Below, one piece after another: positions 40,248-64,000 of a DNA stretch of 64,000 nucleotides. Every line of letters starts with the position of its first letter. Positions within the stretch are counted from its first letter, which is position 1. The stretch is from the NCBI GenBank assembly GCA_963556145.1, contig OY744464.1:5766001-5830000 (forward strand). Reading direction: 5' to 3'. The DNA is from Hygrocybe punicea (taxonomy: Eukaryota > Basidiomycota > Agaricomycetes > Agaricales > Hygrophoraceae). Made by a program: the position numbers and the translations under genes. Under the pieces are notes generated by a model that had not been told where the DNA came from, searched no databases, and worked only from the letters and a program-made list of their open reading frames with translations.

Positions 40248-41312
40248 TAGGCTATTGCACAGATACTCCATGGATATATCTGAGGCTATCCATATCTGTA
40301 TCCATCAATATACATACCTGAGCCACGGATACGGATATGGATATGGATTTCATCACAGATACAGATGGATTTACCTCGCATTCACCACACCAATGTCAAT
40401 TGACGTTGCAGTGTGCTTGCACGAGGTAAAATAGGCCCATACCCATGGTAACTGCCCCTGTCCCAGTGATGGGGTACCAAGCCACACCCGTTGATGGTGG
40501 GTGCCCATGGTTTCCATGCCAGACACCTTGCGAATGCCATGCGCACATCAATTGACGTGGATGTGCGTGATCACGAGATGGTCGCAAACGTGGTTGCAGA
40601 TGTGTGTGTTTGCGAGGTGGTTGTGTTTGTGGATGAGCCATGAGCCATGGCAATGGGAGCATGGGCTACACCCACACTCCCATCATCTGTCTTGGTGCCA
40701 GGTACATTGCAGTCAGGTCTTGAATGGGTCGGGTTGGCTGACACCGCACCTGTACCCATAAACACCGTACCCATGAACACCATACCCATGAACACCGTAC
40801 CCGGGGTGGTGTTCACCTGCACCCGCACCCAAACATTGGACGCATTGTTGTGTGTCTGTGAGGTGGACAAGAGGGGGACACGTTGTCATCATTGCTGTTG
40901 CATGTAGGTGGACGAAGGGAGATGTGTCATTGTGTGCTGTCACCCCATGTTGTTGTTGTTGTCGTAGCATAGTAAGCTAGAGTTCCTTACTTGATGAAAA
41001 ATGGAGACTTACCTGTAGGCCAGGAGGTGGGAGCATCACCCCCAGCTGTTTTCCTGCTCCTTCTGTTGTTGTTGTCTGGTCGCCGCATGCACACTCACCC
41101 TTGTGTAGCCATCAAGGGTGTGGTGGTGGTTGTGTAATGCTAGTTGGTGATGTTGATGTGTGATGTGGGTACTGTGACACTGCCCAAATAGGGACCACGG
41201 ATCGCCAGATATGGATACATGGGTCAGCAGATACCAAAAATGATATCCATACCCATATCTGCGGCAATCTGTATCTGTGATTCGTACTGATCCAAATCCA
41301 TGCATTTGCCTA
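40248..41312. mobile_element. Probable TAGGCA-family hAT, 1,065 bp
   Basis: Left end TAGGCTATTGCACAGATAC and right end ATCCATGCATTTGCCTA, with ATATGGATACGG-type subterminal repeats and two copies of the CAATTGACGT core (40393-40406; 40545-40558). No matching 8-bp flanks (GGTAGGAC against ACCCCCCC), so the ends may come from two copies or the flank has decayed. A 15-bp repeat ACCCATGAACACCGT lies at 40754-40802. Confidence 0.6.
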
Positions 41313-43577: not shown

Positions 43578-44786
43578 GCCCATGTTGGTCCACAGAATTG
43601 AGCCACATACCAGTCTGCAAGCATACATTTAATGTTGACAACATTGACAAAGCTCACAACAGCTGAAGCCATTATTTATTGAGAAACTGCTATCTAAATA
43701 ATCAGAATGTCTCTTTTTGTAGATCACATATATGTCCCCTGTAATATAATTTGAAATTCAATTATTATATGTAAAGGCAATAGCAAAATTCTTCTTTTAC
43801 AAATCCACAATATCTCATCCTTAGCCTCAGCTCTTACAGAAGCTCCTTATATCCAATGACAATCTATACCAAAATCAGAACATACCCCACATGGAATATT
43901 GTGCTTTTTTATTTACAGTGAGTTCTGAAAGTAATGGCCGCACCAAAATTTTTTTTTTTTGAGGCGCTTACAAAGGCTCGGTCAGTGCCATGCCAATGTG
44001 GCTGAGAAACAAGAAATATGGTTTATATGAGATTTATGGCAGCTATTCGTAATGCAGCTCTACCTTAAGCCTAAATAAACCTATCTACACCTTACAACAC
44101 CTTGAAATACTATCCTAACTGAAGGAAGTACAAAATAACTGCACAGATTAAATTTCCTTTTTGGTCACGAGATAATCGGAGATATTAGCTTGTTTTGGAA
44201 AATTGGCTTGTTTTGGAAAGTCTTAAAATCACATTTGATAATACTATTTTGGATGTCAAAAACTAGTTTACCTTTTAGTTTATTCATAGCTCACCATATA
44301 CTAAATATTGTCCAAATATAATTACAGCAGTATGTAGTCCTTAAATAATAGTACAACTTTTCCTTTATAACTAACTTAATCCATACAGTATTTCATAAGA
44401 TACAAGATTCAGCACTTAAAAATTTTACTAAGTCAAAATTTCTCAATTGAAAAAAAAAAAAAACTAGGAGTACCATAAATTACTAAATGACTGTAATGTA
44501 CCAAAAGCAACAAAATCTGAAAAGATATTGCATAACTTTTATATATTTTCAACAAAAATATAATGAACCAATAATCTATTACTTTGAGTAGTTGGTGAGT
44601 GACTTCATTCTTTATTTTATAACAATCATTATATTTGAAATAATACTTTAATTAAAATTATGTAAAAATACCACAATATATTTTCAGAATATTTCTTCTA
44701 AATATGTGTTGAAATAATTTAATTTAATTTTAAGATAATTTTTTCAAAATTTTTATCAAAATATTACACCATGTATCTAATGTTAG

Positions 44787-44978
44787 AAATTCTGGAGAAG
44801 TATATGCAAGAAAGACTAGCTCTCATAAAATAAATAAACTTTTTCTTTCTCATCATATAAAATGGTATAATATTTCATAAGATCTAATACAAAATATTTC
44901 GATCTTATCTAAGTCTTTATTTCTAATATCATGTGTTACTATATGTTAATGACTACTAATCAGACATTAAAATTAATT
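44787..44978. repeat. Decayed copy of the foldback MITE
   Basis: Aligns by eye with 29795-29975 (shared CTCATAAAATAAATAAAC and CTTATCTAAGTCTTTATTTC). Most differences replace G or C in the better copy by A or T here. Confidence 0.65.
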
Positions 44979-45070
44979 AATTAATTAATTAATGAATTTA
45001 ATTATACTTCTTCAAATACCCTGTAAACAATGATATAAAAAATTAAATATACATAATAAACATTTAAATA

Positions 45071-45522
45071 TAAGGTAGTTCTATCTGGCACCTCGAGTGC
45101 ACCTAACCTTCTATACACCTTTATCTTATATAATGGTAGCTAAATGGAATAAATCTAATGAATCAGTTTTAGTCCTGTTGATGATAAAATCACAGAAAAT
45201 CTTGCATGAGTAAGTTTACACGTTTTAGGTGTTGATAGAAAAATAATGTTTTGCTTTGATTGAATGGTTGCCTAGAAATAGAGAACTTATCTGGAATTGA
45301 TGCTTATATTTAAATATCAACTAAACAGAATTTAAAAAAAATTAGTTTTTTCATGTTATAATCTTCACACTGTATAAAAATAATTTTTCAGTCATTTTAT
45401 CACCAGTAGAACTTGAGTTAAAATTGATTAGTGAAAATTATTTTATATAGTTATCACCTTACAAGGCAAGAGGTGTGTGGAAAGTTAGGTGCACTTCAGA
45501 GAGCCAAATAGAATAATCCTTA
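45071..45522. mobile_element. MITE, 452 bp, inverted ends about 60 bp
   Basis: TAAGGTAGTTCTATCTGGC...AGTGCACCTAACCTT pairs with the complement of 45462-45522 (AAAGTTAGGTGCACTT...AATAATCCTTA). A TA or TTA duplication is possible. No coding capacity. Confidence 0.6.
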
Positions 45523-46892
45523 AATAGAATAATACTAAATTCAATGATTTAACAGATCTGATTTAATAAAATAATATTTAAAAGATTTAATATAAAATTT
45601 AATTTATGTATATAAAGCTTTAGAAAAGTACAAGAAATTTATCTTATTAATTATAATATTAATATAACAATTATTTATTCAATACTTACTATATCATTAA
45701 AAATATAGAATATTAATTCTCAAAATATAAATATATCTATATTAAAAACTAAAATTTATCTATTTGGATCTTTAAGAAGCTGCTTAGTTATCTGATACCC
45801 TGTTTCTCATATAGTTATAGTTAATTGACCTGATTAAGATAAATCAATTTATGCTTGTTCGTTACTTGAAAATAAACTTAAGAGAGTTAAGCAATGCAAC
45901 ATGCAATAATGTTAGATCTTCAGAATAAATAATAATAAGGTTTAGTAAAGTATGTGGTAAAACATAAATTAACTTTTTATCTATATTTATTGTTTCACTA
46001 TATAAAAGATGACAATTATTTTGCGTCAGTAATATATACTTATAAATTACTTAAATCTAATTTTACTATATTTTTGCTGATGATATTTCAAAGACATTTA
46101 TTTATGTATTTTAATTAGGCTACTTAGCTAGCTATGACTATATATAAGGAACAAGATATTAGATGACTAAGCAACTTCTCGAGGAGCCAAAGAGACACCC
46201 TCTCAAAAGTAATATTGATAATTTTATTAGAAAAAGTTATTTCAAATGTGATAGAAATTATTATAAAAATAGCTTTATCTGTGAATATTTTAAGTTGAAA
46301 AAAAAATAAGTCTTATGTTGTGAACAGATATTATCTGAGAGCATTAGGATTATTTGAATGGTTAGTGGTCAATGAGAAAGTGGTAAACTGGATTTATAGA
46401 AGAGCAGAAGTTACAAAAAAGTGAGAGAGATGTTATAAGTGGTATGATCTGAATCTGAATCTGTAATTCTTATAGGAGCCAAGATACAGATTGATAAAAG
46501 TTATTAGAGTTATATATATTTTATTTCTTAGAGGTTTTTACATATCAGTTTTATACTGCAAGTAAATTAGTCACTGAAGCTTATCATTTTGTGAATCACA
46601 GGATTTCAATAATTAAATGTTAGTACTGGTAATGAAACTGATACCTAGGAATTTAGTAGTAGAAAACACATCTAGGAGTCAGAAATTTAGATGGTTATAA
46701 AGTTACAAAAAAATTAACATGAGTGAGAGACCAGAAAAATTGAGTAAAAATAAGAAAGTATAGCCAAGCAATTAGAATAATCATTCTCGAGGAAGACATC
46801 CAAAGGCTGAAGCCAGTAGTCCTTGGACTCCTTAAATATCAGCTTGTTGTCTCAGGGGCAGATACATAAATCCCTTAGGACCGAAAGTACCT

Positions 46893-46974
46893 GGCACAGT
46901 CTTGAACTCGGGAGAGAGTCACGTGACAGCCTCAATGCACTCCGTAGAGTGTTTAATCACTAAGCTATGTTACC
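46893..46974 (-). other. tRNA-like sequence (SINE or tRNA relic)
   Basis: Complement of 63909-63990. It has box A-like TAGCTTAGTGATTAAAC and box B-like GAGTTCAAGAC, about 55 bp apart. The acceptor stem pairs poorly, so a working tRNA is unlikely. Confidence 0.35.
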
Positions 46975-47614
46975 AATAATATAGATGCCAACATAACATG
47001 TTTATAGTGCTAACAATATAAATTGTAATAGACTAGATAGCTGACTACAGAGTACTTCTACGTGCAGTCGCGAAGGGGTGGTCAACCGGGGGTTATAGCT
47101 GTGCCAGGTGAAAAAGGTTGGACAGGTGGATTGGAGCTAGTTGGCGGTTGGGACATTTAGGAAGCCCCACCCAGTCATTTCCATCATGAAGGAGGTGCAA
47201 GTTATCCATTCAAACCGTGGGTGGTTAGTGTCAGGGTTCTGGCTGAAAAAAGCTAGGGGGGTTGGAGACAAGTTGGTAGCGCTGATAATTGGAAGGTCGC
47301 ACCACTTTGTTTCCATTGATAAGGAGGTGCGGGGGGCCACTTAGGCTGTGGGTGGTTGCAGTTGGCCGGAGGAAACCGCGGTTCTGGCTAAAAAAGTTGG
47401 GGAGGAGGGTCAGAGACAAGTTGACAGCGCGGGAAATTAGGATGCTCTATCCTCTTGTACCCATCATTTCATGCTTCTGGGGTGTTCATTCATCTTCCAG
47501 GTGGTCCATTTCACAGTAGGAGATACCTAGTGTCGAGAGAAACATGGGGGACACAAGTCTTGTTCCGTGTTTTATTTGGTCACGCCGCGTCACCTTTTCT
47601 GCGCTTGCTCCACA

Positions 47615-48741
47615 ATGGCCCCTACTAAGTTCACTAAAGTAACTGCTGCTGCCCCTAAAAGGCTTGTTCACTCTTTCTTAGCTACAGCTGTGAGTATTAT
47701 TGTTTCTTTTGTTGCCCTATTTCACTTTTTTTGTTTAGATAAACAGTCAAAGATCTACTTCTGGCTCCAACCCTGGCCCTGCTTCCACCCCTGCTCCTGC
47801 TGCTGCTGTATTTGGCTTTGCTCCTTCCAGCCCTGCCTCCTCTCCCTCTCCCTCCAGGTCTCCCACCTCTGTCCCCTCCAAGCCTGGGGCTAGAAAGCTG
47901 GTTAGCTCCACCTCTGAGCTGATCAAGTCTCTGAGATCTAGAAAGGTAAGTTGCTAACTCTACCCCTTCTGTCTCCTTTATTTTCAACACAAACTCATCA
48001 TTCTCACTAGAATCTTGGAGCCAAAACTGCTGCTGTCAAGCATTTGGCCAATATAGCCAAAGATAAGAAAGCAGGTACAAGTTGTTATCCCCCCACGAAA
48101 AAGGGCATTATCAAGATGTTGGAACATGAGATCATGTCCAATTTGCGTCAAGTATTTCTCAAATGGCCTGTCTCCGCTTCCCAGATGGATACGTTATGTT
48201 ATGCTATGACTTGTCTTGTAGGTATGTACTACTAAATTTTTTTAATGAACTATTACAACCAATTACCTCACCCAGATAACAAGAAGCTTCTTGCAGGTTC
48301 TTATGTCCTGTCTCGCCATCTTGGTTCGATGACTATCAAGGTCTGATTTTATTTTTGTATACTATGTATAATATTTACTGATAGTAATTTTCATAGGATC
48401 AAACCACCTTTCGTGATGTCTACTATCATTTGGGCTGTATCACAGTGCCGCAATACAAGTGCTTCGCTGCCGATAACGGCTCTCTCAAGGCTAATGTCCA
48501 TCTTCACGATACCCTTAATGCTGCTACCTTGACTCTAATCAAGACCAAAATCACCAATGCTCATGCAGCCATTCTGCCTGTTCGTCCTGCTCCTACTGAG
48601 TTAGAGGTGGAGCAAAAACGTGTCAAGGCCAAGGTAAGGCACCTTCGTCATTTGGCCAAGAAAGGTTCGCAGATGGTACATGGGTTCGATACATCTGATG
48701 GGGAAGGAAATGGGGATGACTATGAGCCTGACAACAACTAA
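47615..48741 (+). CDS. Unrecognised 300-residue protein, five exons (left copy)
   Basis: Exons 47615-47689, 47739-47945, 48011-48221, 48276-48340 and 48397-48741 all have GT...AG introns of 49-65 bp and join without a stop. The N-terminus is MAPTKFTKVTAAAPKRLVHS. Residues 30-75 are rich in Ser, Pro and Ala. The middle is helical and basic (KHLANIAKDKK, TKKGIIKMLEHE), then DVYYHLGCITVPQYKCFAAD, a charged helix (ELEVEQKRVKAKVRHLRHLA) and an acidic tail ending EPDNN. No family recognised. It converges on the helicase half-gene (224 bp between ends). Its open frame contrasts with the decayed helicase beside it, suggesting selection or recent duplication. An identical translation is encoded at 62142-63268. 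Confidence 0.75.
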
Positions 48742-48965
48742 TCACTCCTGTCAGATTTGTTGGCCCATCGGTATTATTTTTGTATACCACTATGTCCATA
48801 TTATATCATCACCAGTTTCCTTGCTCAAATTCATAAACACGCCAGATTGTTCATAAGCAAAGTAAAATGATATTTTCAAATCTACATTCTGTTACGATGT
48901 AGCCATAACCATACAATCAACTCCAAGCCATTATAAAATGATCCAGGATTGGCCTCTTCCTTGGC

Positions 48966-50919
48966 TCACATCCCAAATTCCTGGATCCTCATTCCTTTTT
49001 TTAGACCAGGAAAGGCTTTTGTAGCCGCTGTAAATATAGCTGGATTGATAAAGACAAACCAGCAAAGCACCGCAACAAAATCTTCAAATGGACATGCCAC
49101 TGTCTTTTCAGGAGCAAAAACAGGATGTGTCGATGGCAAATATTGTCCCTGAGATAAGCCACATTGCCAGCAATATTCGTACTTTTGAAAAGATCTGAAG
49201 TAGTTTTTATTGAGATCAAACCATCGGATGGCGTTGTTGACAAAGACATCTTCTGGACTACGACAGCTGATGAAGTAGATATGGTTTGGGGTCTTAACCA
49301 CATCGCAACGTCCTTTCCATGCCCAACAAATGATGCACTTTCCATAGAGATATCTTGTCATGGCTTCAAGTTCTGCAACCTTTGCCTTCCTGCTTTACAT
49401 ATGTTGTGCATAAACAGCTGCATCTAGCTGCATGGCCATCGATGGTCAAATACTGATTGGCAGAATGATTGTTGTAGGAGGAAGTACTTGAGGTGTAGGT
49501 TTTGTTACTGGTCCTGCAGAACCTGTTGCGACTGGCGATGTTTGAGGTATGGGCTCAGTAGATGGACCTGAGGAGGATGAGACAACATTGGAGCTGAGTG
49601 GGGCTCCACACAATGATTCCATATCAATGTTCATGAGTGATGCGTCATCCCAACCTCCCAAGTCATAATTGTCCTTGATATCCATAGTATTTGATCGTGA
49701 TATTTGAGGTGTGTCCTTAGCCATGAGTTTTCTGACTGCATGGAGAAGCTCCATGGTTGGATTACAAAGTTCGCACTGCTCTACACCTTCTATCTCAGTG
49801 CAATCCATGTTATCTCTACCATCCATGAGACGAGTCATAACTTTTCTTCAACATTCTATATTGGTTTGTGCTCATTCTCCAGCTGTCACAATACATTGAT
49901 GGTCCTCCCAGCCATCAACCGAACAGAATATGGTGTTGTTGCTGTGAAGCAAAAACACAAATGCGGGTTGGCCACTACATCCTGCTCGTCCTGTACCTTG
50001 TTCGATGTTGATGGCACCAAAAGGTATTTCAATGAACAAAATGGCTTGGACATCTAGATGATCAATGCCATATATAAAGCCAGAGGTTGCCACCATTCAC
50101 TGGTGATGTCCTTGATACCACGACTCTTGAAACTGCACCTTCAGGTCAGATGGCATCTGGGAATGAGATTTGCAGTCTCCAAAATGTTTAGCAATTTCGT
50201 TGACAGTTGGGATGTCAATGCAGAAGATGATACCACGCGATTAAGAGGTGAAGGTGGTTTGTTGCAAATATGAAGTCAGGTCAATGGCTATTTGGTTCAC
50301 TGGTTTCATTTGGTTGTTGATGTGCAAGACATGGTATCTGATGTTTGGACATGTGGTGGGGGCCCCGATGAACTGTGTCGATGAAGGCATGCATGTTTCC
50401 TCCAACAAAAGTTTTTCATGAGTCACTGGCAATGTGGCTGTGAGGAAGATTTTCATCATGGGGTAGAAAGCAAGCTCTTTGACTCGAGCAAAGTCTCCAC
50501 GATACATCACATCGGTGAAGATCTTATGAGCTTCATCAAACACCCATCGAACAATCTTTCCTTCTTTTTGGCGATACCATCTGGAGATTTAATTCAATAT
50601 GCAACGATGTCATTACTGGCTTCTTGAGTGGACTTACTCTTTGAAACCCAATGAGATCACTGATTCCATGACCAGATACACCACATGTGCATCGTCTATC
50701 TGATGATGGGCAGATGTCCATTGACAGGTAGGTATTCCATATGCCTTGGTTTTACGAATCATATCCAGTAGTAGCGTCTTGTTTGGAATGACTACCAGAG
50801 TGATGAGATTTGTTTCAAGCAAGGCTGAAAGTAAAAAGACCACGCTTTTGCCACCACCAGTTGGTAAAATACCCACAAAACTTCTCTCTTTTGACAGTGA
50901 AAGTTCGATCATCTGTCAT
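48966..50919 (-). pseudogene. RecQ-type helicase half-gene (left copy)
   Basis: Minus strand from 50912: Walker A FVGILPTGGGKSVVF, then after a short intron FDEAHKIF (DEAH box), IFLTATLP, APTTCPNIRYHVL, a second RecA-like part RGIIFCIDIPTVNEIA, VATSGFIYGIDHLDVQAILF and NIEQGTGRAG, a cysteine pair CTEIEGVEQCELC, and a C-terminal region with CIICWAWKG and YCWQCGLSQGQ. Broken by stops after TTFTS, after GHHQ and after VTAGE. CAG at 49149-49151 is read through here, where the right copy has TAG. The start abuts a hAT end and its target duplication; the missing 5' part is the gene at 55691-59222. Confidence 0.85.
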
Positions 50920-50964
50920 TAGGCAAATGCACGGATTGGGCGGATCAGCGTGGATCACGGATAC
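50920..50964. mobile_element. Isolated 45-bp hAT end (left arm)
   Basis: TAGGCAAATGCACGGATTGG... is preceded by TCTGTCAT (50912-50919). It matches the first 45 bp of the element at 51784 with three changes, then stops abruptly. Mirrored at 59919-59963. Confidence 0.75.
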
Positions 50965-51777
50965 TCAGTTAAATTTTTCTTAGCTATACAAACTTTTCAC
51001 ACTTGCATCACAAGATGAACAAACGCTCCATTTGCCACCAATCTCTTTCAAAACATAAAAATGCATTGCCAAGTCATATCCTCCAAAAACACTGAATTGA
51101 TAATCCTTGCAAAATTAATGGTGCTCTATTGCCAACATTTAAGTCAACTTGAAACATACTTACTGGTGTTTCTTAGGAGTTACTTGGACAGGTCTCCGAG
51201 AGAGTCCCGTTGATCTGATACAGTGTCTTATTGCCATCTGCTCATGGTTAGGTCATGACTATCATAAATTCAAAATTAACCCAATGACCAACATTTCACT
51301 TTGTCGCCATTACCTTGGAATGGTTGCTTGCCAACACCTACCGCTCCTTCCAATGAACCAGGTGCAAGTTCCTCTGCCCCCAAGGATGATGTTGTTAAGC
51401 ATCATCATCATCATACAATCTTGTGTTATCATCCTTATTTCAAGCCATCCTCAGATCTAGCAGGCCTATCTAGAAGTGGTTCAGATGTCAGGAATATCAC
51501 TGAACACCAATCTGAAATGGAGATCAACTCAACTGGTAGGCATTCTCCTGAGCATGTCAACTAAGCTAATGTGGTTGCATCTAAAGAGATTCAAATTGAC
51601 AATCCCACTGCAATTGAGGATAGTTTGACCAGTCAGTATATGTGATATCCGAGTCATGGAGTGCCAAGCATTTTAATAACATTTCTAGTAACTGCCTTTC
51701 CATATCACCTAGATGGTTCCAAGTCATATTTGACCACCAATAACATCTTTACATTTATGGGAGTTCGATTCCACATC
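50965..51777 (+). other. Duplicated 5' region of the C2H2 gene (left copy)
   Basis: Mirror of 59106-59918. On this strand it carries the upstream part and the first roughly 115 bp of the C2H2/recombinase-like gene (reading ...LITFLVTAFPYHLDGSKSYL to ...VRFHI), then breaks at 51777. Frames at 51149-51564 include a histidine run and NITEHQSEMEINSTGRHS but no recognised domain. Confidence 0.65.
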
Positions 51778-51907
51778 TGTCATTAGGCAAATGTACGGAT
51801 TGGGTGGATCAGCGTGGATCACAGATACGGATCGCCTTGGATACGGGTCCGGATCAAGATTTCCCGATCTGTGCACCTGTGTATCTGTAATCGGTCCCTA
51901 TTTTGGT

Positions 51908-52007
51908 NNNNNNNNNNNNNNNNNNNNNNNNNNNNNNNNNNNNNNNNNNNNNNNNNNNNNNNNNNNNNNNNNNNNNNNNNNNNNNNNNNNNNNNNNNNNN
52001 NNNNNNN
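51908..52007. other. Assembly gap, exactly 100 N
   Basis: A round gap length typical of scaffolding with unknown distance. It lies 130 bp inside the left arm's outer junction, so linkage between the two arms depends on it. Confidence 0.98.
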
Positions 52008-52953
52008 GAACCAACAACAAGAACAGTACATATAGTGGCTGGTCTTGAGGGGAGGTAAATAGGAATACAACCATGAAGCCACAACATGTCCAACTCTACC
52101 ATGTGTTCACCATGAGGCATACATGAGGCGTCCTCATGTCGATGTTCTCGCGATCCAACTGGAGGCCCGGGTGTCATTGAGGATAGAAGAGGTCCAGATG
52201 ACTCGGATGATTTGTCATCGGATCATGTGACATGCAGAATTGCCAATTCGGGGTCTACACTTGCTGTAATGGGCAAGTACGCAGTTTGGCAAGTGCATTG
52301 CATGGTCGGGTCGAAGATGGGTATCGTCCAGTGTAGGATTGGTGATGAGAGTGTCTTGAGGTAGCAGGGACATAGCGACAAGGTCGGTATAAAGGAAAAC
52401 AAAGGAATGTATGGAGGGAAAACCAACTAGGATGGTGGGATAGTCGAGGTCAGACATATGAACAGCATAAGCTGTACCGGATGACGATGTCTGTGTCAAT
52501 GACGTATCGAGGGGTGATGTCTTGTCCTGTCTGTGGAACAATGCAGTCCACCTGATGTTGGTATTCATCCAAGAAAGGGTATTGTTGTAAACGAGTGTGG
52601 GAGATATCAAGGTTATAGATGGAAAAGGGTAAATGAATGTGGGTCCAGGTTTCGAGTCATGGCACAGGTGACAAGCTGTGGGAACAAGTCGTCGGGTACT
52701 GCAATGAAGCGATGTCGTGCGAACAATATGCGATAGGGGTTGGTTCACTGTTTGGGAAGTCGTATGGTCTGTGGTCGAAGTCCAAAAGAATGTGCTTCGG
52801 CGATGGTCGGATTAGAGAGAACAGTGAAATGTCTTGTGATCGGGGATTGTTCAGAGTTCGCATGCAGGTGAGGAATGTCGTCGGATTGTCAGGGAGGATA
52901 ATGGTGGGCACAGGGTACGAATATGGAAACCAAATATCCGGGAATGGCAATTG

Positions 52954-53124
52954 TCAATTATGTGTCGATATATTGTCGAGGTGGAAGTCAGAAGTATCAA
53001 TGGCGGAAGGGTTTCGGTGCCGATGCCAAAGATAGATCATAACAAGGTAGAAACCGATCAGGAAGGTGATGGCAATGCTGCCAATAACAATTACGGTAAT
53101 GAGCTGTGTCGGGAGTACAGCCAT
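52954..53124 (-). CDS. Possible 56-residue membrane protein
   Basis: Short minus-strand frame from ATG 53124 to TGA 52954: MAVLPTQLIT, then a strongly hydrophobic stretch (VIVIGSIAITFLIGFYLVMI), then YLWHRHRNPS. One predicted membrane span. It sits within non-autonomous hAT F. Surrounding frames at 52215-53439 (minus) have protein-like composition but no recognised family. May be chance. Confidence 0.2.
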   Translation of the reverse strand: MAVLPTQLITVIVIGSIAITFLIGFYLVMIYLWHRHRNPSAIDTSDFHLDNISTHN

Positions 53125-53623
53125 TGGGAATCGGTTTGTCGTGGGATGAAGTCAACAATATGTCAGGGCGAGGGAAAAGACAATAGCGATGATGTCCGTC
53201 GGCAAGGAGACTATTCGGGTACAGCAAGGTAACGTGGGGATGTGTCCATGGTCGGTCTGGATTGTTCTAGAAGAAGAAAGGATGAAAAGAGAACAAGAAC
53301 AAGAATAAACAATGATGTCCAAAAGAAGACAAAAGGCAAAGGGGAACGAAAAAGGAAGGTATGGTAAAGTGGAATCGTCATCGTGGGTAGCGGAGTCGGA
53401 ATCGGAGTTGCGGAGTTGAAAAATGTAACATGCACCCACCTCCCGTTGCAGTAGATTTTTTGTTTTTTTGTTTTTTTTCTTAGCTACTAATTACACAAAC
53501 GACGACAACGGCAGTACCAACAACACAAACACCACACACCTGACGAGGACAACAAGCGGTAAGGACAAGGGTGACAACGGCGGCCACCACGATGACGACG
53601 ACAACCTACATCTCTCCAAATAG

Positions 53624-53624
53624 G

Positions 53625-53661
<37 letters not shown>

Positions 53662-53740
53662 CCACCACGACCACCACAGTGACCATGACCACGACCACTA
53701 GCACGACCACTAGCACGACCACGACCATGACCACGACCAC
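53624..53740. repeat. (ACA)n and (CCACGA)n microsatellites
   Basis: About 13 ACA units, then variants of ACGACCACTAGC and CCACGACCATGA. Confidence 0.85.
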
Positions 53741-55110
53741 TGTTATGTGAATGTTTGTTTCACCAAGAATTACCGGAGTTGACTTTGTTCAGGTACCTTC
53801 TTGTTGTTCGTGGGTTTCTAATATTTAAATAACCTATCAGGAAGGGGTTTGTGGGTATATGTACTATATGAATCAATAGAATGTAATAGTGAGGTCTCTT
53901 CAATTAAGAATTGAGACTTTGAGTAGGTATGAATAGTAATTGGGTGTGTGATGTATTGAAAATACTAATATTCACTACTGGAATATAAAAATATGAACTA
54001 ATGAATACTGATAACAATATTCACCAGTTGAATATGGACAGTTTTGGCTACAGGGCCTATTCAATCAAGAGTATCTCTGGGTATTATAATATCTGACTTA
54101 AATCCGAAGCTTCAAACGCACATTGGCTACTAGTTCAGGGATATCTTTAATACCTTTTGAATACTCTGTTTTGTTTAGGATGAAACCTTAACCTTAGAAG
54201 TGTATCTAGCTGACTAATGCTGACTAATGAATTGATTGAACTGAGTGAACTGGGTGAATTCTCCTTGATGACAAGGGGAACTCAGAGAATGATAGAATAA
54301 GAGTGAACTAGACTGGATTGCAAGCACTAGCTACTACAATGAGTAACTACTAGTACTAAGAGAATGAGGGATCACACTGTGTGAACCCAACTGAGAGTGA
54401 CTACTGAGTGGTGAGGGGGGAATCCTACTGACTACTGGAATTTGGGGGCCCTATTTATACTGTTGGAGAACAATGGGGGACTGAGAACAATGGGAAAGTG
54501 AGAACAATAGGACTGAGTCATGAGAACAATGGATGGCATCAAAGAGGCTGTGAACAATGGGCTCTATCTCCATTTGGACTGTTTAGAACAATAGACTGCT
54601 CAGAACAATAGACCATTATCTTTATGTAAGCAGAATATCACAATCACTCTCTGATGCATCCTATCTTATCATTATCTTATCATCCTCTTGTTCACATCTT
54701 ATCTAATCATTTCCCATTATCTAGCTGAGTTGCTTTTGATCAATACAAGTAAACAAGATTTGTAATCAATCCATTACTGCTAATATAGGTAAGAATGCTA
54801 GTTGGGCTTGTCTCCTTGCACGCGCAATACAGAGAAATATATAATAAATACTAATGAGTGGGGGATGTGCCTCTGTACACCATACATAAACGACTAGGTC
54901 TGGGCATTGCTAGTGAAGCCATAATAAATGATATAAAAGTAAGCATAAATGCTAATTGTGTCTGTTCACTAGCATGCGTAATGTGGAAAGGCATAGAATG
55001 GGTACTAATGAGTGTAGGTGTGCATCCATAGTGTTGCACTTAAATATCTAAGTCCGTGGTCCGATGGTAAACCCATGACATTACACCCAAAAACACTTGG
55101 GGTCATGACA
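53741..55110. mobile_element. Possible solo LTR inside hAT F
   Basis: Starts TGTTATG and ends CATGACA, short near-inverted ends around 1,370 bp of non-coding, AT-richer DNA unlike the GC-rich flanks. It includes an imperfect tandem duplication (about 54790-54890 and 54940-55040, both with ACTAATGAGTG). An alternative right end is ATTACA at 55085. No target duplication found. Confidence 0.3.
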
Positions 55111-55690
55111 CCGCGACCGCGATGAAGGCCACAGCCATCTCGCCACCAACATACCTCGCGGATGCGCACTGTCACGTCAATCGACGTTGGCGCTGCAACC
55201 GCGAGGTAACCGGGAGGATGGTGGTGTGCCTACCACCTGGTCGCGGCCAACCCACCCCCTGCATCGCGTTCACGTTGAGACCGGGACAACGGGGAGCCCA
55301 ACTATGTCACCTCGCTGTCTTTTGCCCCAAACCCCACCCCCACTTGGTCAACACCCACGGCACCTGTTTCCCATCCATTTTCGAGCACCCCCAACTCACT
55401 TGCACACCACCACGATGACCGGCCATCACCGCTGCCTCGGCCACCATGCGGCCGACCTCCCATTGCACCATGACACGTCTGCATTGTGCCCCGAGCATGG
55501 TGCAGATCTGTCCTCGGCCTCAGTTACCTCGCGCGAGCACGCCGCAACGTCAATTGACGTTGGCGCGGCGAACATGAGGTAAATACCGTATCATATCCGT
55601 ATCCGTGGCTCGGATACGGATATTGATGGATATGGATACAGATACCAAATTCGGCACCCGCGGATGATCCGTGCAGTTGCCTATCTGTCA

Positions 55691-58600
55691 TTATTGTTCT
55701 ATTAGAAAAGTGACATCTGGATTGTCCGGAAAGATTTGCTGCAGCAGACGCAATGCTACATCATCCACAGGTTGATGATTTGGATTGATGTCCAATGGTT
55801 GATCCAAGACATAGATGTCATCAAAGTCATCAACATGTCCTGAGCTTGTTTCGTTGCTTTGAAGAATCGGAGGTGGTTCCAATATGACTTGTTGGTTATT
55901 GTGGACTGGAGCAACCAACACATTTTGTCTCTGCATAAACTCTGCAATACCTGCAGCAACACCAATTTGAATCTGCTGCTCCAGTTCCATTTTCATCTGG
56001 GTAACAGAAGTTGTGATGACTCCTGTCAGTTGCTCCACTAGCCGCCCCAAGTCCACAGTTGTTGACGATGGTGAGATGGTGTTAATGGTGGTTGATAATG
56101 ATCTTGGTGTTTGAAAGCTTTCACGGATTTTTCTGCGCTGACGTAGAGGCAAAAGTGGGACACCATTGAGATAAAATCGAGTCAGACACCACCACCATTC
56201 AGAGGCATGACCAAATTGAAGCATGAGGTCACTTGAGACACCAGGAAGTAAACCACACTCTATGGCATAATTGTTATGACGTGCCATTGTAGAATGGCCG
56301 GTCTGTTCTGCCAAGACGTCAACCTCGTCTTCTTCATAAATTTCATATTCTGAACCCAGGTAGACTTTTGCAATCAGCACAACCAGCTGCCGGTATGGCC
56401 AAATTGTTAGAGATGTGCCAAAGTATGTCTCTGACACAGACTGCAAAGTGGAGGAGAATTGTGACTCAGTCATGTGCTTGCCAAAATGCATGAAAAGGTA
56501 TTCATGATAGAGCACCACAACTTCTTCTCCCCACAGTTTGCGTGCCAAGTCGACTTCCAGCTGACAAATGATGAGGAGGTAGAAATCCACTAGTTCTTAC
56601 AGTTCTGGAGGTAGCTTGCTTGGGATGAAGACCTCTCTGCGAATCTGGTTTTCATATTTGACATGACGAGTTACAAGCCAGTCTGCACCATGGTTGCGAA
56701 AGAATGTCCATGGACGAGTTGAGTTGTGTATTTTGGAATCCATTAGCTCTGATATTCTGGAAGGCTGTCCAGGAAGGGTGTGGCATAGAACCGCTATGTG
56801 GCCATTAATCCTGGTTGTCTTTTCCATGATGCGAAGCATAGCACCTGGCATGAAAATGAGGCCATCCTTGCCCTTGGTGCAAAGATCAATGGATGAATCA
56901 TTCATTAATATCTGTATGAGGGCTCTGTCTTTGACAAATTTGCCATTGTTGAGCCATCCATAACCACGAGTACGTTCCGTCATTGTTACTTTTCACCCCA
57001 ATCTAACCCCCGCTTCTGACCCCGTTTCTAACTCTATGTCCAACAATGATGTCATAACATGGGTCCAGAACATTGTCGACGACAATCGACAGCGATATCC
57101 CAATCCATATAATTATCCTCATCATCTGACCACCGCTGACAAGTCACTGTCTTCACACACGCTCATACACGCACTCAACAATACCGCATAGCATAACCAC
57201 CGAATCAGTTGTCTGCTGACACCAGACCCACAACGCAGTCGTTGGCCACTATAATGGCACCCTAAAACGTGTAGACCACGAAGCAAACTAAGACACCGTT
57301 CATCTCGGAGCTTATCCTCCTCACAGCCACGAATGACGAAGAAGTCTGCCCTAAAGTCTTTGTAACATATATAAACCCGAACACTTGTAGTCAGTAACTT
57401 TAAGTTTAGTCTAGCTACTCTTCCCTCGACCGCTACCAGAAACTGAAACTCCCCCTTTCTCTTTACTTTACCCTATCCATACTCACTTCCTCTCTTAAAA
57501 ACATCCTTGTTTGGTTTGTTGTTGCCGGAGTCCACCATAAGAACAGCAATCCATAACAGTCATGTCATCTGAAATGATGTCTGGAATATTGATGGTAATG
57601 CAACTGTTGTTGCAAAGGTTGGTGAAATCTTCCTTGACATCGGAAAATAGCTTCCTGAGACCAATGATCCAGCGCTTCACCTCCATGGTCTTGTCCTTGT
57701 ATGTCACGATCGTCCCATCCTCATTTACAGTAGCGGTTGGAGGGCGAGTGTTGGCATATGACAATGATGAGGCAAACTGCTGATAGTCCACAACTAAGTT
57801 GTATGGAGAGAAAACGCCTGGACTTAGATTCTGCATGCAAAAATACTCAAGGGACCTGATTTACTTGTTACTCAACTATTAGAAGATCACTTCAAGTCAT
57901 CACTCACTTGTATGCAAATTGTGGAGCTCACAGAATGCCTTGGTACAATGTGCTCCCTCAGCAAATATACTTCCAGATTGAAAATGGCTTTGTTAGCTCA
58001 TGAGCATCCTGGAAATTGCCATCAGGAGTTATGTTCCCAATTGCCAGGTAGCACTCCAAGACTTCCAACCACTTGCTGTACTCTCCTTCTTGTTGCTGCA
58101 TGGACAAAAATGGATATATGAACTCATGCAGAATGGTGACTGCTTTGTTGTCTTGACTTGGATCGTCCAATAACTTCAAGAGCTTTCTGCCGATGACACG
58201 AGTGCCCTGAGATATGGTGAAGGAATAGTTGGAGGAATGAGGATCCAAAGTTAACAATACTGCTTGAGCTAATGTATGCAGCGGTTGACCATAATGATAG
58301 AGAGTCTCATCATCGCTGTGGGGTTGCCAGTGCTTGCAATTCTGTGTGACTCTGTGATCAAACACAAGTTGAAACATATTAGAATTTGTGGAGGTAACAT
58401 ACCGAGGGCATTCCATGAGCAGACATCTCATGGCAACTGTAGAATTTATAGCCTTTGCTTGAATGTCTTTCAAGTAGTCAGTAACGATGTCGCCCAGGTG
58501 ACCCAGTCCTTATTTTAAGATATGAGTCGGTAGTGTGACGAGAGATAAGAGGTGACCCCGTATATGATAATCCTGGCTGTAGTCTTGTAGATGGATGTGC

Positions 58601-59222
58601 CATTGTGTTAGTTGAAGCATAGGAGGGACTTCATAGGCATGAGCAGGTGCAGTTGCTGGGAACACAGGAAAGTTGGAGACTTCATCTCGCATGTATATCG
58701 TAAACATGTCATCAGATGAAAGTTCGCTGAGCAAAGAATTGACTTCAAAGTAGCATTCTCCTACGGGCCTGAAAAATGTTTGCAAAGTGCCCAAGTGATG
58801 ACGGTATCCAGGAAGTATCATCAAGTCTTATACCAGTGATTATCAAAGGATTTCTTTTTGGGTGCACAGAAAGTGCAGTAATTGCAACAGAAGTCATCTG
58901 TGACCTGATCTAAAAGCTCAATAGGAGGGCCTCCCGGTGGAGGCTTTGTGACCTCATGATTATCTGTAATGTCCAGATCTTCCACTATTTCTCCAAAGGC
59001 TAATATCTGTGGATTGGTTAATTGAATGCCATGATGCTGAATGTGAGTGATTGTGGTACTAGGAAGTTGAGCGATGCCACAAAGACAAATGAGCTTTTTG
59101 AAATGGATGTGGAATCGAACTCCCATAAATGTAAAGATGTTATTGGTGGTCAAATATGACTTGGAACCATCTAGGTGATATGGAAAGGCAGTTACTAGAA
59201 ATGTTATTAAAATGCTTGGCAC
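55691..59222 (-). pseudogene. C2H2/recombinase-like 5' half of a RecQ-helicase element gene
   Basis: Minus-strand segments: a zinc region (LICLCGIAQLPSTTITHIQHHG and FCCNYCTFCAPKKKSFDNHW, 59110-58830) typical of the DUF3505-like N-terminus; then LGTLQTFFRPVGECYFEV and PPMLQLTQWHIHLQDY (58800-58560); GTIVTYKDKTMEVKRWIIG (57715-57660); TERTRGYGWLNNGKFV (56980-56930); LVTRHVKYENQIRREVF; YHEYLFMHFGKHMT; WPYRQLVVLIAKVYLG; and the recombinase-like AEQTGHSTMARHNNYAI (56310-56260). It ends VTFLIEQ then TAA TGA at the hAT duplication. Read past the hAT, the frame continues as QMIELSLSKERSFVG into the helicase half. A solo LTR splits it at 56984-57558, and other breaks (near 58820, 58500, 57900) look like introns or decay. 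Confidence 0.75.
56984..57558. mobile_element. Solo LTR, 575 bp
   Basis: Begins TGTTACTTTTCACCCC and ends CAATCCATAACA, flanked by the perfect 5-bp duplication GTCAT (56979-56983 and 57559-57563). It contains a TATATAA box near 57368. The C2H2 gene reads through in frame when it is removed (ISDDMT-ERTRGYGW). Confidence 0.85.
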
Positions 59223-59918
59223 TCCATGACTCGGATATCACATATACTGACTGGTCAAACTATCCTCAATTGCAGTGGGATTGTCAATTTGAATCTCTTT
59301 AGATGCAACCACATTAGCTTAGTTGACATGCTCAGGAGAATGCCTACCAGTTGAGTTGATCTCCATTTCAGATTGGTGTTCAGTGATATTCCTGACATCT
59401 GAACCACTTCTAGATAGGCCTGCTAGATCTGAGGATGGCTTGAAATAAGGATGATAACACAAGATTGTATGATGATGATGATGCTTAACAACATCATCCT
59501 TGGGGGCAGAGGAACTTGCACCTGGTTCATTGGAAGGAGCGGTAGGTGTTGGCAAGCAACCATTCCAAGGTAATGGCGACAAAGTGAAATGTTGGTCATT
59601 GGGTTAATTTTGAATTTATGATAGTCATGACCTAACCATGAGCAGATGGCAATAAGACACTGTATCAGATCAACGGGACTCTCTCGGAGACCTGTCCAAG
59701 TAACTCCTAAGAAACACCAGTAAGTATGTTTCAAGTTGACTTAAATGTTGGCAATAGAGCACCATTAATTTTGCAAGGATTATCAATTCAGTGTTTTTGG
59801 AGGATATGACTTGGCAATGCATTTTTATGTTTTGAAAGAGATTGGTGGCAAATGGAGCGTTTGTTCATCTTGTGATGCAAGTGTGAAAAGTTTGTATAGC
59901 TAAGAAAAATTTAACTGA

Positions 59919-59963
59919 GTATCCGTGATCCACGCTGATCCGCCCAATCCGTGCATTTGCCTA
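59919..59963. mobile_element. Isolated 45-bp hAT end (right arm)
   Basis: ...ATCCGTGCATTTGCCTA followed by ATGACAGA (59964-59971), the complement of TCTGTCAT. Mirror of 50920-50964. Confidence 0.75.
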
Positions 59964-61917
59964 ATGACAGATGATCGAACTTTCACTGTCAAAAGAGAGA
60001 AGTTTTGTGGGTATTTTACCAACTGGTGGTGGCAAAAGCGTGGTCTTTTTACTTTCAGCCTTGCTTGAAACAAATCTCATCACTCTGGTAGTCATTCCAA
60101 ACAAGACGCTACTACTGGATATGATTCGTAAAACCAAGGCATATGGAATACCTACCTGTCAATGGACATCTGCCCATCATCAGATAGACGATGCACATGT
60201 GGTGTATCTGGTCATGGAATCAGTGATCTCATTGGGTTTCAAAGAGTAAGTCCACTCAAGAAGCCAGTAATGACATCGTTGCATATTGAATTAAATCTCC
60301 AGATGGTATCGCCAAAAAGAAGGAAAGATTGTTCGATGGGTGTTTGATGAAGCTCATAAGATCTTCACCGATGTGATGTATCGTGGAGACTTTGCTCGAG
60401 TCAAAGAGCTTGCTTTCTACCCCATGATGAAAATCTTCCTCACAGCCACATTGCCAGTGACTCATGAAAAACTTTTGTTGGAGGAAACATGCATGCCTTC
60501 ATCGACACAGTTCATCGGGGCCCCCACCACATGTCCAAACATCAGATACCATGTCTTGCACATCAACAACCAAATGAAACCAGTGAACCAAATAGCCATT
60601 GACCTGACTTCATATTTGCAACAAACCACCTTCACCTCTTAATCGCGTGGTATCATCTTCTGCATTGACATCCCAACTGTCAACGAAATTGCTAAACATT
60701 TTGGAGACTGCAAATCTCATTCCCAGATGCCATCTGACCTGAAGGTGCAGTTTCAAGAGTCGTGGTATCAAGGACATCACCAGTGAATGGTGGCAACCTC
60801 TGGCTTTATATATGGCATTGATCATCTAGATGTCCAAGCCATTTTGTTCATTGAAATACCTTTTGGTGCCATCAACATCGAACAAGGTACAGGACGAGCA
60901 GGATGTAGTGGCCAACCCGCATTTGTGTTTTTGCTTCACAGCAACAACACCATATTCTGTTCGGTTGATGGCTGGGAGGACCATCAATGTATTGTGACAG
61001 CTGGAGAATGAGCACAAACCAATATAGAATGTTGAAGAAAAGTTATGACTCGTCTCATGGATGGTAGAGATAACATGGATTGCACTGAGATAGAAGGTGT
61101 AGAGCAGTGCGAACTTTGTAATCCAACCATGGAGCTTCTCCATGCAGTCAGAAAACTCATGGCTAAGGACACACCTCAAATATCACGATCAAATACTATG
61201 GATATCAAGGACAATTATGACTTGGGAGGTTGGGATGACGCATCACTCATGAACATTGATATGGAATCATTGTGTGGAGCCCCACTCAGCTCCAATGTTG
61301 TCTCATCCTCCTCAGGTCCATCTACTGAGCCCATACCTCAAACATCGCCAGTCGCAACAGGTTCTGCAGGACCAGTAACAAAACCTACACCTCAAGTACT
61401 TCCTCCTACAACAATCATTCTGCCAATCAGTATTTGACCATCGATGGCCATGCAGCTAGATGCAGCTGTTTATGCACAACATATGTAAAGCAGGAAGGCA
61501 AAGGTTGCAGAACTTGAAGCCATGACAAGATATCTCTATGGAAAGTGCATCATTTGTTGGGCATGGAAAGGACGTTGCGATGTGGTTAAGACCCCAAACC
61601 ATATCTACTTCATCAGCTGTCGTAGTCCAGAAGATGTCTTTGTCAACAACGCCATCCGATGGTTTGATCTCAATAAAAACTACTTCAGATCTTTTCAAAA
61701 GTACGAATATTGCTGGCAATGTGGCTTATCTTAGGGACAATATTTGCCATCGACACATCCTGTTTTTGCTCCTGAAAAGACGGTGGCATGTCCATTTGAA
61801 GATTTTGTTGCGGTGCTTTGCTGGTTTGTCTTTATCAATCCAGCTATATTTACAGCGGCTACAAAAGCCTTTCCTGGTCTAAAAAAAGGAATGAGGATCC
61901 AGGAATTTGGGATGTGA
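59964..61917 (+). pseudogene. RecQ-type helicase half-gene (right copy)
   Basis: Same content as the left copy, on the plus strand: GILPTGGGKSVVF near 60010, intron 60247-60300, FDEAHKIF near 60345. Stops at 60640-60642 (TAA), 60784-60786 (TGA) and 61009-61011 (TGA). It also has TAG at 61732-61734 where the left copy reads CAG, and CGG at 61781-61783 where the left copy reads CAG. It runs divergently from its own 5' half (55691-59222), separated by a hAT end, so it cannot be expressed as the original fusion. Confidence 0.85.
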
Positions 61918-62141
61918 GCCAAGGAAGAGGCCAATCCTGGATCATTTTATAATGGCTTGGAGTTGATTGTATGGTTATGGCTACATCGTAACAGAATGTA
62001 GATTTGAAAATATCATTTTACTTTGCTTATGAACAATCTGGCGTGTTTATGAATTTGAGCAAGGAAACTGGTGATGATATAATATGGACATAGTGGTATA
62101 CAAAAATAATACCGATGGGCCAACAAATCTGACAGGAGTGA

Positions 62142-63268
62142 TTAGTTGTTGTCAGGCTCATAGTCATCCCCATTTCCTTCCCCATCAGATGTATCGAACC
62201 CATGTACCATCTGCGAACCTTTCTTGGCCAAATGACGAAGGTGCCTTACCTTGGCCTTGACACGTTTTTGCTCCACCTCTAACTCAGTAGGAGCAGGACG
62301 AACAGGCAGAATGGCTGCATGAGCATTGGTGATTTTGGTCTTGATTAGAGTCAAGGTAGCAGCATTAAGGGTATCGTGAAGATGGACATTAGCCTTGAGA
62401 GAGCCGTTATCGGCAGCGAAGCACTTGTATTGCGGCACTGTGATACAGCCCAAATGATAGTAGACATCACGAAAGGTGGTTTGATCCTATGAAAATTACT
62501 ATCAGTAAATATTATACATAGTATACAAAAATAAAATCAGACCTTGATAGTCATCGAACCAAGATGGCGAGACAGGACATAAGAACCTGCAAGAAGCTTC
62601 TTGTTATCTGGGTGAGGTAATTGGTTGTAATAGTTCATTAAAAAAATTTAGTAGTACATACCTACAAGACAAGTCATAGCATAACATAACGTATCCATCT
62701 GGGAAGCGGAGACAGGCCATTTGAGAAATACTTGACGCAAATTGGACATGATCTCATGTTCCAACATCTTGATAATGCCCTTTTTCGTGGGGGGATAACA
62801 ACTTGTACCTGCTTTCTTATCTTTGGCTATATTGGCCAAATGCTTGACAGCAGCAGTTTTGGCTCCAAGATTCTAGTGAGAATGATGAGTTTGTGTTGAA
62901 AATAAAGGAGACAGAAGGGGTAGAGTTAGCAACTTACCTTTCTAGATCTCAGAGACTTGATCAGCTCAGAGGTGGAGCTAACCAGCTTTCTAGCCCCAGG
63001 CTTGGAGGGGACAGAGGTGGGAGACCTGGAGGGAGAGGGAGAGGAGGCAGGGCTGGAAGGAGCAAAGCCAAATACAGCAGCAGCAGGAGCAGGGGTGGAA
63101 GCAGGGCCAGGGTTGGAGCCAGAAGTAGATCTTTGACTGTTTATCTAAACAAAAAAAGTGAAATAGGGCAACAAAAGAAACAATAATACTCACAGCTGTA
63201 GCTAAGAAAGAGTGAACAAGCCTTTTAGGGGCAGCAGCAGTTACTTTAGTGAACTTAGTAGGGGCCAT
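62142..63268 (-). CDS. Unrecognised 300-residue protein, five exons (right copy)
   Basis: Mirror of 47615-48741: exons 63268-63194, 63144-62938, 62872-62662, 62607-62543 and 62486-62142. I saw no difference in the encoded protein. In both arms the gene converges on the helicase half, which suggests it belongs to the RecQ element rather than being captured separately. Upstream (63420-63750) lie three degenerate copies of a 133-148-bp tandem repeat. Confidence 0.75.
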
Positions 63269-63419
63269 TGTGGAGCAAGCGCAGAAAAGGTGACGCGGCG
63301 TGACCAAATAAAACACGGAACAAGACTTGTGTCCCCCATGTTTCTCTCGACACTAGGTATCTCCTACTGTGAAATGGACCACCTGGAAGATGAATGAACA
63401 CCCCAGAAGCATGAAATGA

Positions 63420-63750
63420 TGGGTACAAGAGGATAGAGCATCCTAATTTCCCGCGCTGTCAACTTGTCTCTGACCCTCCTCCCCAACTTTTTTAGCCAGA
63501 ACCGCGGTTTCCTCCGGCCAACTGCAACCACCCACAGCCTAAGTGGCCCCCCGCACCTCCTTATCAATGGAAACAAAGTGGTGCGACCTTCCAATTATCA
63601 GCGCTACCAACTTGTCTCCAACCCCCCTAGCTTTTTTCAGCCAGAACCCTGACACTAACCACCCACGGTTTGAATGGATAACTTGCACCTCCTTCATGAT
63701 GGAAATGACTGGGTGGGGCTTCCTAAATGTCCCAACCGCCAACTAGCTCC
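63420..63750. repeat. Degenerate tandem repeat upstream of the 300-residue gene (right copy)
   Basis: Three related blocks, mirrored at 47138-47465 on the left. On the left they start near 47138, 47271 and 47419, with shared AGTTGG.AGCGC..G.AATT and TTTCCAT.AT.A.GGAGGTGC. They may be promoter-associated. Confidence 0.5.
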
Positions 63751-63908
63751 AATCCACCTGTCCAACCTTTTTCACCTGGCACAGCTATAACCCCCGGTTG
63801 ACCACCCCTTCGCGACTGCACGTAGAAGTACTCTGTAGTCAGCTATCTAGTCTATTACAATTTATATTGTTAGCACTATAAACATGTTATGTTGGCATCT
63901 ATATTATT

Positions 63909-63990
63909 GGTAACATAGCTTAGTGATTAAACACTCTACGGAGTGCATTGAGGCTGTCACGTGACTCTCTCCCGAGTTCAAGACTGTGCC
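63909..63990 (+). other. tRNA-like sequence (right copy)
   Basis: GGTAACATAGCTTAGTGATT...CCCGAGTTCAAGACTGTGCC has box A and box B likeness. It is repeated in the left arm and may mark an outer part of the duplicated element. Confidence 0.35.
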
Positions 63991-64000
63991 AGGTACTTTC

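Follow-up and report, generated by a model that had tools for sequence, protein, structure and literature searches.

Origin of a palindrome beside a hAT insertion in a helicase-family gene: probable fold-back copying

Described inverted duplications and the present palindrome

Two described systems come close to the locus considered here. In reversed-ends transposition of maize, a target duplication of 8 bp is created afresh at each new joint and lies exactly at the transposon termini (available parts of PMC3744419 and PMC8225341). Maize duplications attributed to this route contain a second hAT copy with a one-sided common target-site duplication (TSD), and fractured elements occur (excerpts of PMC3744419). 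Human fold-back inverted duplications have spacers of 766–70,466 bp in 21 sequenced junctions, and 13 of the 21 show inverted microhomology of 2–8 bp (relevant part of PMC3907307).

We analysed a palindrome in a window of 64,000 nucleotides (the whole stretch of DNA under study), whose right arm runs past the window end; its features are listed in Table 1. Like the fold-back inverted duplications of humans and of Sae2/Mre11-deficient yeast, as described in the available parts of PMC3907307 and PMC10622511, it combines inverted arms, a kb-scale single-copy spacer, a short inverted microhomology at the inner arm ends and an imperfect repeat that was resolved in favour of the template. It differs from them in being small, interstitial, fungal and located beside a hAT element, with a second joint copied within the arms. 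With the maize Ac/Ds rearrangements, in the same parts of PMC3744419 and PMC8225341, it shares the proximity of rearranged DNA to hAT ends with identical flanks of 8 bp, but it lacks a new target duplication at the joint, its joints lie off the transposon termini and its outer ends give no hAT match. The locus looks like a natural instance of a repair accident of known type and not like a new mode of transposition.

Table 1. Positions of the palindrome arms, gene parts, hAT sequences and 8-mer copies in the window
Feature	Positions	Strand	Remarks
Left palindrome arm	44233..51777	-	7545 bp, 3 mismatches to 59106-66650; contains truncated fold-back repeat end, helicase half, 8-mer, 45-bp hAT end and inverted X copy
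TCTGTCAT beside helicase half	50912..50919	+	palindromic counterpart of the 59964 copy
hAT left end (45 bp) in left arm	50920..50964	+	then joint to X
Inverted X copy	50965..51777	+	from 59106-59918; ends at CATC 51774-51777
TCTGTCAT, left TSD of the fuller hAT	51776..51783	+	joined to X via CATC
Single-copy spacer between arms	51778..59105		7328 bp as assembled, including 100 N
hAT element	51784..55683	+	~1.1 kb hAT sequence, by alignment with 7 complete copies; hAT bases 1-124 = 51784-51907, ~261-565 = 53431-53739, rest = ~55110-55683
Run of 100 N	51908..52007		inside hAT, 124 bp from left end
Nested high-copy repeat 1	52008..53430		left part apparently within N run
Nested high-copy repeat 2	53741..55110		boundaries approximate
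TCTGTCAT, right TSD of hAT	55684..55691	+	
Gene 5' and middle part (OrsD-like domain and region before helicase)	55692..59918	-	~93-96% to paralogs
Insertion interrupting 5'/middle gene part	56984-57558		
Right palindrome arm	59106..64000 in window, on to 66650	+	7545 bp in all
X, outermost portion of 5'/middle gene part	59106-59918		
hAT left end (45 bp) in right arm, inverted	59919..59963	-	joined to X with 1-bp overlap
8-mer, inverted (ATGACAGA), beside helicase half	59964..59971	-	
Helicase half	59972..63648	+	~93-96% to paralogs

The interrupted gene and its hAT element

The OrsD-like domain scores 22.1 bits in the window piece, under the Pfam cut-off of 26.6, and is over the cut-off in a paralog at 28.8. 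DEAD is likewise under the cut-off in the window piece (15 of 26 bits), and in the paralog both DEAD and Helicase_C are over it. In all six paralogous genes examined the site is unoccupied and reads TCTGTCGT without hAT, in agreement with the single original 8-mer site that the initial annotation had proposed for this gene. In P0001, which at 96% identity is the closest protein (a single JGI contig of 8612 bp), the frame runs unbroken across the site. Because all six paralogs have the unoccupied site, one ordinary hAT insertion into the helicase gene with an 8-bp target duplication, as had also been proposed, is well supported.

The element shows two features of the hAT superfamily. The 8-mer flanks the window copy on both sides, and short terminal inverted repeats (TAGGCA...TGCCTA) are present in this copy and in the seven complete copies of 984–1293 bp, which had been picked for their matching flanks. 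Twenty-eight other hAT left ends were read from 27 loci, with two loci yielding none; a matching flank at a right end was found at 8/8 positions in 5 and at 7/8 in 2 of them, the remaining 21 having no right end in the stretch examined or at least two flank mismatches. The "full element" of the initial annotation does link the second and third 8-mer copies; it is not intact, being a hAT interrupted by two nested repeats and the N run. No transposase domain was detected in four open stretches of one hAT copy (longest stop-free stretch 218 aa), and the tested window ORF at 52215–52811 lies inside the first nested repeat, outside the hAT.

The 8-mer copies and the two joints

All four 8-mers and both 45-bp hAT ends were located where they had been annotated, as was the overlap of CATC with the duplicated gene at the left inner junction. 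From base composition ~2.06 copies of TCTGTCAT are expected by chance in the window. The window has two more, at 28160 and 35915, which adjoin no hAT end; we infer that the exact contact of four copies with hAT ends is not due to chance. The 8-mer does not mark every junction of the palindrome, as had been claimed: of the four arm ends, 51777 alone touches it, with no contact at 44233, 59106 and 66650.

The first joint (J1, at 50964/50965 and 59918/59919) lies within the arms and not at their ends. Here inverted X is followed in the assembly by the 45-bp hAT left end, the 8-mer and the helicase half, with the break at hAT base 45, inside the element. Among the 42 matches listed J1 was found in the two arms only. 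The two 45-bp ends are mutually identical, and 42 of their 45 bases match the left end of the fuller element. An origin of this end from an unrelated hAT copy is disfavoured, since the end is bordered by the same 8-mer at the helicase half and has GT at hAT positions 31–32 in common with the fuller element, a feature found in only one of 28 other copies. Of these 28 copies, 17 differ from the 45-bp end at three sites or fewer, one of them at a single site.

The second joint (J2) is formed by the inner arm ends, which fall exactly at the CATC/GATG microhomology. The break at 51777 falls inside the 8-mer, 6–10 bp outside the hAT terminus, and the native X sequence at this place is CACATCCATTTC, not TCTGTCAT. 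Because the joined DNA is natively CACATCCATTTC and the break falls within the 8-mer, the copy at 51776 is the old target duplication carried along with the hAT end.

This bears directly on the mechanism put forward in the initial annotation, in which reversed-ends (alternative) hAT transposition would have built the palindrome. The same 8-mer accompanies hAT ends at four places, as this mechanism would have it, and the second maize hAT copy with its one-sided TSD, together with the fractured elements, superficially resembles the 45-bp ends (excerpts of PMC3744419). PF05699 (hAT transposase-type) domains are also abundant in the genome, with at least 152 matches. Against it stand the 8-mer at 51776, which is not native to X while the joint is within or beside it, and J1, which breaks 45 bp inside the element. 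At the joint no hAT terminus abuts new target DNA through a fresh 8-bp duplication, the rearrangement breakpoints do not coincide with transposon ends, and two hAT copies (L051 and L060) used as queries gave no match at 44233, 59106 or 66650, which includes the outer ends of the palindrome. Alternative transposition was rejected on the native CACATCCATTTC at the joint, and we regard it as highly improbable that it produced the palindrome. The locus provides a base-level rule for distinguishing alternative transposition from fold-back repair next to a transposon, namely to check whether the DNA brought to the joint natively contains the 8-mer.

The hAT left-end copies differ at 3 of 45 positions and the arms at 3 of 7545 (Fisher p = 3.8e-6); because of these frequencies J1 and J2 seem to be of unlike age. 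One locus offers two joints of apparently different age, with unoccupied paralogs available to polarise them.

The age argument depends on 45 bp, and the 45-bp end is as near to many other copies as to the fuller element. Transitions make up most of the divergence among hAT copies (1843 of 1959 pairwise differences), so an element that decays fast could give a false impression of age. Equal arm identity would also result from gene conversion if the arms were older. Both joints could also stem from a single event with several template switches.

Formation of the arms

We consider it probable that the hAT left end was first rearranged and that recent fold-back or template-switch copying, primed at CATC/GATG, came afterwards. 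J1 would be the older product, formed by end joining or a template switch. In the later event a DNA end close to the left end of the hAT, at the border of helicase half and 8-mer, would have folded back or switched template onto X and paired at CATC/GATG; repair synthesis would then have copied 7.5 kb of the right arm in inverted orientation, and this copy would have been joined to the left flank. A broken DNA end with a hairpin or dicentric intermediate may have been the origin, as a hypothetical step. The additional copies of 8-mer and hAT end would be passengers of the copying and not transposase products, a caution for other rearrangements at which target duplications are repeated. For J1, inversions with flanking inverted duplications after breakage and end joining, as described in part of PMC12368964, could explain the duplicated 45 bp and 8-mer; the scheme in that part covers J1 only and not the 7.5-kb arms.

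Folding back is in line with the single-copy spacer between the arms and with short inverted homology at their inner ends, which consists of CATC/GATG and the nearby AGTTCGAT. The latter is common to X and the helicase flank; it immediately precedes CATC in the flank and stands 4 nt ahead of it in X. Among 200,000 simulated junctions, in a test chosen post hoc, a shared 8-mer as near as AGTTCGAT occurred in a fraction of 0.0005 and the overlap was at least 4 in 0.017; the 4-bp overlap alone is weak evidence. The left arm is probably the copy and the right arm the template, because the outer end of the right arm falls within a repeat that is complete on that side and cut at 44233 on the left. 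The outer left joint at 44233 has no bases in common at the junction, which counts against folding back. We also considered that the inverted copy had been inserted so as to separate X from Y, its natural neighbour, and rejected this, as Y was not found near the locus; on C6 only one Y, at 7.92 Mb, is among the matches listed.

The AGTTCGAT..CATC likeness between X and the helicase flank would also be expected if the helicase half had already been on the left. An old inverted duplication with J1 may then have been altered by SDSA conversion, which copied 864 bp (8-mer, 45-bp hAT end and X) from right to left, re-annealed at CATC by the TSD and homogenised the arms. Compared with helicase half, TSD and hAT, the left arm indeed has exactly one 864-bp insert, contiguous in the right arm. 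This course of events would require recent conversion over the whole 7.5 kb to both outer ends, whereas folding back takes one step, and we consider it rather improbable.

Of the three differences between the arms, each arm has the derived state at one, and the third could not be polarised. Two haplotypes would give the same pattern, and the sole N run of the 94 kb examined falls in the palindrome spacer, so that its two sides could come from two alleles or loci and the palindrome be a scaffold join. The hAT pieces flanking the run are complementary (bases 1–124 on the left, ~261 onward on the right), do not overlap and have the same outer 8-mer; J2 lies wholly to the left of the run; and the gene orientation is opposite to that near both C2 ends, which does not fit a simple head-to-head join of two such ends. 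We consider an assembly misjoin or mixture of haplotypes rather improbable; the 100-N run inside the hAT leaves room for a misjoin as the less likely reading. The run blocks reading the molecule through. A false head-to-head join of two chromosome ends was rejected, since the gene family near both C2 ends has its helicase half pointing outward, the opposite of what is needed. Two-unit TTAGGG- or TTAGGGG-type arrays were absent from the 94 kb, from 10 kb near the C2 start and from the last 27.6 kb of C2, a weak result given that exact motifs were searched and the C2 end itself shows none.

Returning to fold-back copying, the hAT left end might be a recurrent break site at which abortive hAT cleavage seeds fold-back inverted duplications, a suggestion we regard as doubtful. 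If true, it would provide a route from cut-and-paste transposons to palindromes without new target duplication, and the outcome could pass for alternative transposition. The distance between J1 (45 bp inside the hAT end) and J2 (6–10 bp outside this end) is no more than ~55 bp, although the two seem to be of different age.

Insertion of the hAT element into a helicase-family gene

The sequences flanking the hAT element on its two sides belong to one gene family, with copies near both ends of contig C2 and several on contig C36 of the same genome (~93–96% identity to the window). In six of six paralogs examined the two halves run uninterrupted across TCTGTCGT without hAT; this count leaves out the copy on C39, which is cut by the contig end. 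An open stretch of 624 codons spans the site in the C2 left-end copy, with the 8 bases at codons 530–533 and GILPTGGGKS starting at codon 546. The unoccupied paralogs and the open stretch across the site indicate that hAT inserted at a single site into a region that is coding in the paralogs, and the 8-bp site that the initial annotation placed between the gene halves is thus borne out.

The C2 left-end paralog shows OrsD, DEAD and Helicase_C above the Pfam cut-offs (one further piece of it gave no Pfam match), and the window's broken gene pieces reach OrsD and DEAD scores only below them. Protein matches with a species name (3 of 55) were from Agrocybe and Hebeloma, with 35–39% identity over the aligned parts, pointing to a probable mushroom-forming fungus. 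We take the family to be telomere-linked-helicase-like. Near-identical OrsD/helicase genes (L032–L038) were noticed near both C2 ends and, four of them, on C36; over 3705 bp compared, a C2 copy and a C36 copy differ at a single position, a sequence similarity that suggests recent exchange within the family. The window gene also carries a 575-bp insertion (TGTTA...TAACA, GTCAT on both sides) that is missing from the paralogs compared and looks like a solo LTR-type element.

Left ends of hAT were compared for 28 other copies from 27 loci plus the two window ends (30 loci were taken; L049 and L062 gave no row). Among the 28, flanks were identical at 8/8 bases in five copies and at 7/8 in two, the other 21 having no right end within the stretch covered or two or more mismatches. 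The window element aligns to the seven complete copies compared (984–1293 bp) as three pieces. Those on either side of the N run are complementary without overlap, which favours a correct assembly join without proving it; with exactly 100 N the run has the conventional look of an assembly gap, and Ns could also replace existing sequence. No transposase domain was found in four open stretches of one hAT copy. A diverged copy of the same family (~69–75% identity in the end regions) lies ~3 kb left of the palindrome in opposite orientation.

Features in the window (C6:5766001-5830000; assembly of 92.2 Mb in 42 contigs) and its right flank
Feature	Position	Remark
Left arm	44233-51777	
Right arm	59106-66650	
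Palindrome spacer	51778-59105	7328 bp as assembled
100-N run	51908-52007	inside spacer; sole N run in 94 kb examined
Gene segment X	59106-59918	inverted copy X' at 50965-51777
8-mer TCTGTCAT	50912, 51776, 55684	direct
8-mer TCTGTCAT	59964	inverted
45-bp hAT ends	50920-50964, 59919-59963	
Fuller hAT	51784-55683	
hAT piece 1	left of N run	element bases 1-124
hAT piece 2	after nested repeat 1	element bases ~261-565
hAT piece 3	after nested repeat 2	rest of element
Nested repeats	52008-53430, 53741-55110	distinct repeats of high copy number inside the hAT; 98% identity to their best copies elsewhere
Diverged hAT copy	40287-41312	
Insertion in window gene	56984-57558	
Fold-back repeat	66386-67174	L009:2386-3174

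Two joints at the hAT left end

A self-comparison of the window extended by 10 kb leftwards and 20 kb rightwards gave a single large palindrome with arms of 7545 bp and three mismatches. The 8-mer was found at all four positions claimed initially. We infer that the copies at 51776 and 55684 are the original pair; the one at 59964 would have travelled with the duplicated hAT end at joint J1, and that at 50912 would be its palindromic copy.

At J1, segment X (the outermost part of the gene) is followed, in inverted orientation, by 45 bp of hAT left end, the 8-mer and the helicase half instead of sequence Y, into which X continues in the four paralogs compared. The switch falls exactly where the paralogs pass into Y, with an overlap of one base. 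Y was not found near the window locus, and among the 42 matches listed, J1 was seen in the two arms only.

Into J2, X' reads AGTTCGATTCCACATC, then TGTCAT and hAT; the native sequence of X at this site is AGTTCGATTCCACATCCATTTC, that of the helicase flank AGTTCGATCATCTGTCAT. These sequences place J2 inside or next to the old target duplication, 6–10 bp outside the hAT terminus. CATC, common to X and the helicase flank, is the switch point of J2, in agreement with the microhomology to the duplicated gene proposed earlier. In 200,000 simulated draws an overlap of at least 4 bases at the junction had a chance of 0.017 and the extra shared AGTTCGAT one of ~0.0005, both tests having been picked post hoc with the sequence already seen.

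Relative age of J1 and the arms

Three sites separate the 45-bp hAT end from the corresponding bases of the fuller hAT, against three in the 7545 bp of the arms (Fisher p = 3.8e-6). J1 therefore seems, by divergence, to be much older than whatever event formed the arms or last made them equal. Gene conversion between older arms is a serious rival explanation. Since 1843 of 1959 differences among hAT copies are transitions, rapid decay could make J1 look older than it is. GT at positions 31–32 is common to both ends and recurs in one of the 28 other copies. At one of the three sites the fuller hAT is the outlier (T versus C in 29/30 ends), and at the other two it has the minority base (10/30 and 9/30). 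As a point against the age difference, seventeen of the other 28 copies come within three differences of the 45-bp end, and one of these differs at a single site, so that sequence alone does not tie this end to the fuller element; the tie rests on its position beside the same 8-mer.

Relative to the paralogs, the derived state lies on the left for one arm difference and on the right for another (the third could not be polarised). Derived differences on both sides make the arms probably two separate sequences and not one copied by software, a pattern that two haplotypes instead of true arms would produce equally.

Origin of the palindrome

The initial annotation had invoked alternative (reversed-ends) hAT transposition as in maize. 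The maize survey does hold a likeness: PMC3744419 describes fractured elements as well as second hAT copies that have the shared duplication on just one side, at first sight similar to the 45-bp ends. In the maize cases of PMC3744419 and PMC8225341, the 8 bp found where new joints form are a target duplication newly made right at the transposon termini, whereas the 8-mer at J2 is the old duplication. It is not native to X, J1 breaks within the element, and with two hAT copies as queries the outer ends of the palindrome gave no hAT match, contrary to the claim of hAT ends at every junction. Alternative transposition is rejected on these grounds.

In our verdict, hAT inserted conventionally and two repair joints then arose at its left end. 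A bolder reading, based on J1 and J2 lying within ~55 bp of each other, is that the hAT end itself might be a recurrent break site. The best reading of the palindrome is copying by fold-back or template switch, which would have switched at CATC. The case belongs to a known kind. For human inverted duplications PMC3907307 gives spacers of 766–70,466 bp across 21 sequenced junctions, of which 13 have 2–8 bp inverted microhomology, three ~300 bp homologous repeats and five insertions. The locus agrees with these in the length of its spacer, in having CATC/GATG at the inner ends and in keeping the X version in the left arm.

The outer right end of the palindrome lies inside a fold-back repeat of ~790 bp with many genome copies; at the outer left joint (44232/44233) there are no shared bases. 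This repeat is complete on the right and cut at 44233 on the left, which points to the left arm as the copy. Its left copy covers bases 1–364 of the 988-base query at 100% identity, and the longest copies elsewhere cover bases ~101–888.
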